From positions 1 through 33,444 of the forward strand of contig JAHEJC010000019.1 in NCBI GenBank assembly GCA_024639065.1: 33,444 nt of DNA, given 5' to 3'. Shown one piece after another: positions 31,265 to 32,643 of the stretch. The stretch is from Lewinellaceae bacterium. GTDB lineage: Bacteria; Bacteroidota; Bacteroidia; Chitinophagales; Saprospiraceae. The notes beneath the pieces are model-generated. The model saw only the letters and a program-made list of their open reading frames with translations, was not told the origin of the DNA and did not search any database. The position numbers and the translations under genes are program-made. Position 1 is the stretch's first letter, and each line of letters starts with the position of its first letter.

Positions 31265-31446
31265 AATGAGATATTAAGGTGGGATCATATTGAACTTGGT
31301 GTGATGCATTTCTGACTGGAAGATTTTATGGGAATCAAAAGAGTGAAGAGTTAGAAGCAATAATATCCAAATTTATTATTTCCGTTGAAGCTGCGTTTGA
31401 ATTGGTGTGATCCATTTCTATCCAAGGGGTCATGACCCCTTGGGAT
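31265..31446 (+). repeat. Transposase-tail/hairpin unit A
   Basis: This unit starts ATGAGATATTAAGGTGGGAT, contains a truncated frame ending IISKFIISVEAAFELV and TGA, and closes with the perfect palindrome CAAGGGGTCA/TGACCCCTTG (31423-31442, extended by C and G on each side). It is nearly identical to the unit at 32262-32425 over most of its length. Confidence 0.85.
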
Positions 31447-31625
31447 GAGACATTAAGGTGGGATGATATTGAACTTGACGTGATACATTTCTGACTGAAA
31501 GATTTTATGGTTATCAAGAGAGTGAAGAGTTAGAAGCAATAATATCCAAATTTATAATTTCAGTTGAAGCTGCGTTTGAATTGGTGTGAAACATTTTTAT
31601 TCAAGGGGTCATGACCCCTTGGGAT
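31447..31625 (+). repeat. Transposase-tail/hairpin unit B
   Basis: Same layout as unit A, beginning GAGACATTAAGGTGGGAT and ending in the palindrome at 31602-31621. The tail frame again ends FELV and TGA, and differs from unit A mainly by synonymous changes (ATT/ATA, TCC/TCA). Its palindrome is also the left end of the transposase element. Confidence 0.85.
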
Positions 31626-32262
31626 GATATGCGATAGATATTATTACCTATATTGTTCGAGTTACTATGAAGAGTCAAAATGATGAGTTAATGGGTTATC
31701 ATGTGGTTTTCACGACTCACAATAGCAGAACATCACAACGAATGATCCAGCATGGTATAAAAAAAGGAAACGCACTACTATTAAACTTACCTCAAGAAAT
31801 AATTTTAACAAAAATAATAGGCGATATAATCCACATAAATGAATACAGGTGCATAGCTTACAATATTTGCAAAGACCATGTTCATCTTCTCTTAGTATGT
31901 GGGGAAAATGAGTTGTCGAATATCGTTCAGAAAATGAAATCTATAAGTAGTAAATTATTCAATAAATCGGAAGCGATTTCAGATAGTACTCGAGAATATC
32001 ACAAAGGACATTTGTGGTCTCAAAAGTATTATAGAGCCACGCTCGATGTATGGGAATGGGCTGGATTATCTAAAAAAGCAGGAGAAGTATATCCTTCTGA
32101 TCATTTGCACAATTCAATTACTTATATCAAGACAAATAGAGGCAAACATAACCTTGAAGAGAGCGAAGAGTTAGAAATAATAATTTCCAAATTTATTATT
32201 TCCGTTGAATCTGCGTTTGAATTAGTGTGATCCATTTCTATTCAAGGGGTCATGACCCCTTG
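31602..32262 (+). mobile_element. IS200/RAYT-like insertion element bounded by identical hairpins
   Basis: A single transposase gene lies between two copies of the 20-bp perfect palindrome CAAGGGGTCA/TGACCCCTTG (31602-31621 and 32243-32262), giving an element of about 660 bp. There are no inverted repeats of the IS3/IS5 kind and no obvious target duplication, which fits Y1-transposase elements that recognise hairpins. The start of transposition could use the left hairpin 45 nt before the ATG, and the right hairpin lies 12 nt after the stop, where it may also end transcription. Confidence 0.75.
31667..32230 (+). CDS. Y1 (HUH) transposase, IS200/RAYT-like
   Basis: This 187-residue protein has the HUH motif His71-Val-His73 in NICKDHVHLLLV and the candidate nucleophile Tyr153 in HNSITYIKTNRGKH. 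N-terminal YHVVFTTHNSR and the central KGHLWSQKYYRA are typical of Y1 transposases that cut and rejoin single-stranded DNA at hairpins. It appears intact: a usable ATG, full length and all key residues. It is not clearly a classical RAYT, since the usual MPNHVH and NPV motifs differ, so the name is by class. Perfect hairpins flank the gene, and its C-terminal coding sequence recurs, truncated, in the neighbouring units. Probably it mobilises those units in trans; that is inference. Confidence 0.87.
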   Translation: MKSQNDELMGYHVVFTTHNSRTSQRMIQHGIKKGNALLLNLPQEIILTKIIGDIIHINEYRCIAYNICKDHVHLLLVCGENELSNIVQKMKSISSKLFNKSEAISDSTREYHKGHLWSQKYYRATLDVWEWAGLSKKAGEVYPSDHLHNSITYIKTNRGKHNLEESEELEIIISKFIISVESAFELV

Positions 32263-32425
32263 GGATCATATTGAACTTGGTGTGAGGCATTTCTGACTGG
32301 AAGATTTTATGGGTATCAAAAGAGTGAAGAGTTAGAAGCAATAATATCTAAATTTATTATTTCCGTTGAAGCTGCGTTTGAATTGTTGTGAAACATTTCT
32401 ATTCAGGGGTCATGACCCCTTGGGA
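32263..32425 (+). repeat. Transposase-tail/hairpin unit D
   Basis: This follows directly on the right hairpin of the transposase element. It starts GGATCATATTGAACTTGG, like unit A, and its tail frame ends FELL and TGA. The hairpin (about 32404-32422) lacks one A of the stem, leaving the core AGGGGTCATGACCCCT. Confidence 0.8.
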
Positions 32426-32588
32426 TGAAACATTGAATTGGTGTTGATACATTTCTGACTGAAAGATTTTATAGTTATCAAGAGAGTGAAGCGTTAGAAA
32501 TAATAATTTCCAAATTTATTATTTCCGTTGAAGCTGCATTTGAACTGATGTGAAACATTTCTATTCAAGGGGTCATGATCCCTTGGGA
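32426..32588 (+). repeat. Transposase-tail/hairpin unit E
   Basis: Tail frame of the same type (EIIISKF..., ending FELM and TGA), closest in its EIII reading to the intact gene. The hairpin at 32566-32585 has one mismatch (TGATCCC in place of TGACCCC). Confidence 0.8.
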
Positions 32589-32643
32589 TGATTTTGAATT
32601 GGTGTGATGCATTTCTATCCAAGGGATCATGACCCCTTGGGAT
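32589..32643 (+). repeat. Short hairpin unit F at the right end of the array
   Basis: Only the last bases of the tail (TTTGAATTGGTGTGA) and the palindrome (32619-32640, one mismatch) remain. It ends 13 nt before the stop of the convergent oxidoreductase gene. Confidence 0.75.

Follow-up and report, generated by a model that had tools for sequence, protein, structure and literature searches.

Organization of the locus

The window, i.e., the whole stretch of 33,444 nucleotides analysed here, corresponds to the entire contig C210 of a 6.77-Mb draft genome of a Lewinellaceae bacterium, which consists of 616 contigs. We found that it encodes an intact HUH/Y1 transposase bracketed by palindromes 2 and 3 of a series of six spread over 1.2 kb, as the earlier note had described. 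The 20-nt palindrome has six matches in the window against 0 expected from 100 shuffles, and all copies (6/6), judged from their unequal flanks, lie in identical orientation, with start-to-start distances of 179, 641, 161, 162, and 54 nt. The array is situated 0.8 kb from the contig end, with ordinary genes on both sides, and is composed as follows:

31265..32640, + strand: whole array (two tail-REP units, the REP-bracketed gene, two tail-REP units, and one short REP unit)
31339..31410, + strand: tail copy 1, the last 23 codons of the transposase and the stop
31423..31442, + strand: REP-like palindrome 1, perfect; DNA hairpin of -9.8 kcal/mol, z -3.4
31518..31589, + strand: tail copy 2, a 72-nt copy of the transposase 3′ end
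31602..31621, + strand: REP-like palindrome 2, perfect; 45 nt upstream of the transposase gene start
31667..32230, + strand: intact HUH/Y1 transposase, 187 aa (Pfam Y1_Tnp, 52 bits)
about 31874-31885, + strand: HUH motif D-H71-V-H73, from alignment
32123-32125, + strand: catalytic Tyr153, from alignment
32159..32230, + strand: tail inside the intact gene, C-terminal helices after the catalytic-Tyr helix
32243..32262, + strand: REP-like palindrome 3, perfect; begins 12 nt past the transposase stop codon
32320..32391, + strand: tail copy 4, a 72-nt copy of the transposase 3′ end
32404..32422, + strand: REP-like palindrome 4, one A missing
32482..32553, + strand: tail copy 5, a 72-nt copy of the transposase 3′ end
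32566..32585, + strand: REP-like palindrome 5, one mismatch; weaker hairpin
32593..32607, + strand: 15-nt tail remnant TTTGAATTGGTGTGA within the 54-bp unit
32620..32639, + strand: REP-like palindrome 6, one mismatch

The hairpin begins 12 nt downstream of the stop codon, and so the last ~24 codons of the transposase are included in each unit. The four 72-nt tail copies keep the frame and stop codon of the gene end, and all of them (4/4) match the transposase protein, with 73–80% identity. The full tail units are 88–96% identical, units 1 and 4 being the closest pair, and are joined at the GGGATGA/GGGATCA foot of the hairpin. The earlier description of the units as a transposase end plus a hairpin applies to these four; in the 54-bp unit no more than the final 15 nt remain, and a 5′ segment of ~55–60 nt common to the four tail units is not derived from the transposase. 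This segment is similar to the last bases of the tail followed by CATTTCT, without a hairpin, and we weakly favour viewing it as a decayed unit. TTTCTAT, previously given as the 5′ flank of the palindrome, has to be amended at copy 2, which reads TTTTTAT. In the predicted fold of hairpin 3 an outer GATCC/GGATC stem is formed, which by eye is not kept in the other window copies. No Rfam families were detected in the array region. We also considered the hairpins as terminators and rejected this, as one terminator-like site was found vs 1.0 expected.

The transposase and its placement

The transposase gene is present in a single copy in the genome. Among 26 homologs, residues H71, H73, Y153, N157, R158, K160, and H161 are invariant, and the clade retains the signatures HNSRTSxRM, N[IV]CxDHVH, WxQK, and YIxxNRxKH. 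The Y motif reads NR, not NP, in 26/26 homologs, and the class 2 NP ending is absent. A Foldseek search with the AlphaFold model of the protein (pLDDT 83.7) matched ISDra2 and IS608; the match to E. coli TnpAREP (4er8) was weaker. A profile search of solved structures pointed to ISDra2 and related IS200/IS605 TnpA proteins (E about 3e-7), and E. coli TnpAREP was not matched by sequence in that search. The scores against NCBIfam IS200 (47 bits, cut-off 55) and REP_Tyr_transpos (41.5 bits, cut-off 80) are both below threshold. The duplicated tail corresponds to short C-terminal helices past the Tyr153 helix; lying after that helix, the tails are devoid of catalytic residues.

The phylogeny that the earlier note had called for was computed on 65 rows, of which some reference rows are long or partial (including partial ISDra2 and ISSto rows), and it places the transposase in a clade with 97/91 support, apart from IS200/IS605-like rows and from NP-motif RAYTs, including E. 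coli RayT. Sequence comparison supports a RAYT-like clade matched to no described subclass, separate from both the standard IS200/IS605 and the NP-motif RAYT groups. No homolog of the window protein was found in viral contigs, phage records, or plasmids.

Dispersal of the hairpin and local amplification of the tail

When the hairpin with its flanks was searched genome-wide, allowing up to 3 mismatches, we detected 12 forward and 2 reverse matches, compared with 0 for a reversed-pattern control. Outside the array the hairpin is located on five other contigs, namely C353 (an array of four, some degenerate), C507, C571, C368 (two copies), and C65; the copies on C353, C507, C571, and C368 lie between genes. 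A search of the genome with the whole array returned, outside the array itself, hairpin matches only and no tail. Since the hairpin occurs on other contigs and the tail does not, what we observe is REP-like dispersal of the hairpin combined with purely local amplification of the tail plus hairpin. Both the likeness to REP/RAYT systems (dispersed hairpins with short flanks, and a transposase between REPs) and the local amplification suggested at the outset were thereby borne out. The proposed non-autonomous family of tail units is not supported, no member being found elsewhere in the genome, and the likeness to REPINs had to be abandoned, all six copies being direct with no inverted pair.

The ends of contigs C368 and C65 (L033 1-260 and L034 1-260) share a 97% identical 260-bp segment that holds one hairpin, the centre of which is changed in the alignment. 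Among 101 relatives, the exact palindrome is found only in this genome and in G022. The latter possesses three exact CAATGGGTCATGACCCATTG palindromes (L140, L142, and L144), while the transposase search listed no match there; these are possible orphan REPs.

Palindromes associated with the clade

Palindromes with CAA[G/T]GGG arms and differing centres accompany homologs in Bacteroidota, Spirochaetota, Thermodesulfobacteriota, Ignavibacteriota, Methylomirabilota, and others. Across 31 loci, their density is 0.73 per kb within ~0.5 kb of the homologous domain vs 0.06 per kb farther out, i.e., 12 times higher, and a shuffled-arm control gave a mean of 0.42 palindromes vs 39 real ones. The GT[AG]G tetranucleotide is absent from the foot of the window hairpins; in the clade it occurs within 8 nt in 8/72 palindromes, as compared with 4.5% at random positions, and is not a general feature of clade palindromes. 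Upstream of one standalone homolog (L060 1840-1990), a half palindrome (TTCAAGGGGTCACAGGRYCC-like) recurs in short tandem repeats that run into a full palindrome.

Gene-end duplications at other loci

We observed a similar organization in a Saprospiraceae relative (L073), where a 135-bp segment with the transposase tail and the same REP is repeated in tandem downstream of the gene with 91% identity; this tail-plus-hairpin copy is an independent case. On contig C353 (L030 1675-2296), the four hairpins are flanked on both sides by a 217-bp direct repeat (92.6%) that includes the 3′ terminus of an ordinary gene, which is peptidase-like. The other Y1 loci of this genome are:

L025, contig C20
L026, contig C302
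L027, contig C572
L029, contig C108

All four (4/4) have direct repeats of 103–262 bp beside the gene, carrying their own, different palindromes. Those on C572 include the tail of that Y1 gene, repeated upstream, and the locus resembles a tandem duplication of the whole Y1 unit, with a scaffold gap. With direct repeats adjoining all the other Y1 genes, and given the L073 and C353 cases, the array is less singular than it first looked.

Origin of the array

We consider it probable that the locus is a REPtron of a new RAYT-like clade, in which a dispersed cognate hairpin is combined with a REP-bounded tandem duplication beside the gene. The cognate hairpin, roughly TTTCNNTTCAAGGGGTCATGACCCCTTGGGAYGA, would flank the transposase and have been scattered in low copy to intergenic sites, and the DNA between hairpins beside the gene would have been tandemly duplicated, with the hairpin as the boundary. 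The transposase presumably binds and cleaves the single-stranded hairpin, and the duplications might start by such cleavage or by replication slippage at the hairpin. As the duplications on C353 need no transposase gene, slippage or recombination could just as well have acted without the enzyme. This reading builds on the observed anatomy of the array, the dispersal, the clade-wide link of protein and palindrome, and the recurrent duplication of gene tail plus hairpin, whereas the low copy number of the hairpin (about 15), unlike that of classical REPs, and the lack of a general GT[AG]G foot count against it.

A serious rival is that entire transposase copies once stood in tandem, through duplication of the REP-gene-REP unit, and that later deletions spared only their 3′ ends beside the hairpins, which are the present tails. 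It has to be taken seriously because an excess of synonymous changes hints that some tails diverged within intact genes: 8 of the 15 differences among the five tails are synonymous, where 20–27% are expected at random (binomial P 0.005–0.026), in a test weakened by the small number of differences and the non-independence of the copies. At L073, gene and tail likewise differ in their coding sequence by synonymous or stop-preserving changes, and the apparent whole-unit duplication on C572, with its scaffold gap, fits as well. Nevertheless, one 5′ junction and segment are common to four units, so that a single deletion and a subsequent duplication of the unit would be required, and C353 exhibits the same pattern with a non-transposase gene; we regard this origin as rather unlikely. 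It is possible, if doubtful, that hairpin-induced replication slippage or unequal recombination produced the array and that the transposase merely supplied the REPs in the past. All units are indeed direct repeats joined at the conserved GGGATGA foot, and the array on C353 surrounds the end of an ordinary gene, but the arrays cluster at Y1 genes, including all Y1 loci of this genome (5/5).

That the locus is an insertion sequence of the IS200/IS605 type, with hairpin ends and solo right ends left behind by transposition, seems very unlikely: although IS200/IS605-type TnpA proteins, ISDra2 first, are the best matches in the PDB by both sequence and fold, the gene is single-copy, the tail plus hairpin is not dispersed, the tree separates the transposase from ISDra2-like rows, and its 47 bits remain under the NCBIfam IS200 cut-off of 55. 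An assembly artefact is highly improbable, even in a 616-contig draft with the array 0.8 kb from a contig end, for the tail units are 88–96% identical and not exact copies, ordinary genes flank both sides, and L073 represents an independent case.

Clade members inside type IIG restriction enzymes

At ~22 loci, the homologous Y1 domain was found to be part, in frame, of a larger protein, which when complete is usually 1100–1270 aa long. The loci concerned are:

Embedded Y1 domain: L058, L063, L066-L068, L070-L072, L079, L080, L082, L085, L089, L091-L093, L098-L102, L150, L166
Orthologs with an empty site: L151, L153-L157, L160, L167, and one beside L067

The two fusion proteins that were scanned contain Eco57I, TaqI_C, and MmeI-type domains, with a type IIG model as the best match. 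The embedded domain is positioned between EFPxVF and GGFDVVIGNPPY, just before the catalytic NPPY motif, where orthologs without it have 14 residues from an AFxW motif to GGF. L080 and L102 represent more distant methyltransferases with the Y1 domain at the equivalent position. On a quick tree of the N-terminal part of the enzyme, genes with and without the insertion are intermingled, with at least 4 changes forced by supported branches and 7 by parsimony; the Y1 tree likewise mixes embedded with standalone forms. In several embedded members, the palindrome lies inside the reading frame of the domain itself. The sources of the embedded form are mostly metagenome assemblies, Membranihabitans marinus DP5N28-2 being an isolate. 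The whole-enzyme model of the Algibacter fusion is of low confidence (pLDDT 64.7, pTM 0.37), and no conclusion rests on it.

At L063, L066, L071, and L089, CAA[G/T]GGG palindromes occur both within the restriction-enzyme gene and outside it, 44–148 nt ahead of the gene or 55 nt beyond it, an arrangement that seems to bracket the gene as a whole. The contig of L071 is labelled Thermus/Deinococcus, its fused gene is 63% identical to one from Flavobacteriaceae, and it is probably a mis-binned Bacteroidota contig.

We tentatively propose, with some reservation, that the clade could be a mobile module, carried in frame as a passenger by type IIG restriction-modification enzymes, in which an HUH/Y1 domain with its own palindrome would be gained and lost at one fixed site before NPPY, without splicing and with the host enzyme unbroken; the standalone REP-flanked genes would then be the free-living form. 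A limited literature search revealed no paper describing a Y1 domain inside Eco57I-type enzymes. The TnpAY1 survey discarded unexpectedly long proteins, which it ascribed to fusions or annotation errors (PMC6006769), and this exclusion may explain why the embedded form is not described there.

Comparison with known systems

P. fluorescens SBW25 has tandem clusters in which REPINs are repeated along with their flanks, and each of three RAYTs in that strain adjoins a higher-order REPIN cluster; to account for the clusters, the authors proposed a second mechanism (PMC3116915). Like these REPtrons, the window locus has a Y1 enzyme with its cognate hairpin on both sides, the hairpin also being scattered over intergenic sites, and tandem clusters of hairpin and flank beside the gene. 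Yet, it has single direct REPs instead of inverted REPIN pairs, a low copy number, no general GTAG foot, and a different protein clade, and its repeated flank includes the 3′ end of the enzyme gene itself. TnpAY1 subclass 2.4/RAYT group 4 (PMC6006769) is likewise found in Bacteroidetes and various phyla and has in-frame REPs between the HUH and Y motifs, as do several relatives described here, mostly embedded ones, but not the window gene. However, that subclass is characterized by NH[IFV]H and YIxNNP, in contrast to DHVH, YIxxNRxKH, a CAA[G/T]GGG core, and the many members inside type IIG enzymes in the present clade.

The IS200/IS605 elements ISDra2 and IS608 provide the closest solved sequences and folds, but the window transposase belongs to a separate clade and, with a single genome copy, shows no sign of a mobile full-length element. 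Rickettsia RPE, other in-gene palindromic elements, and intragenic REPs (PMC3733652) resemble the restriction-enzyme-embedded relatives in placing palindromes in reading frames without breaking them; there only the palindrome is inserted, whereas here a whole transposase domain resides in frame in the host enzyme at one fixed site. Set beside these systems, the locus is probably a genuine, well-formed REPtron with a tandem REP cluster, and its RAYT-like clade fails defining marks of the described ones.

The origin of REPs and of tandem REP clusters is unsettled, and the window locus, together with L073, C353, and C572, ties such clusters to gene-end duplication at hairpins; the locus and its parallels are small arrays open to experiment. 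With this clade, RAYT-like systems also come to include palindromes that lack a general GTAG foot. The greatest surprise among the leads is the clade's in-frame life inside type IIG restriction enzymes, a recurrent residence that points to a relation of host and passenger, perhaps not described before, linking single-strand transposases with DNA defence.
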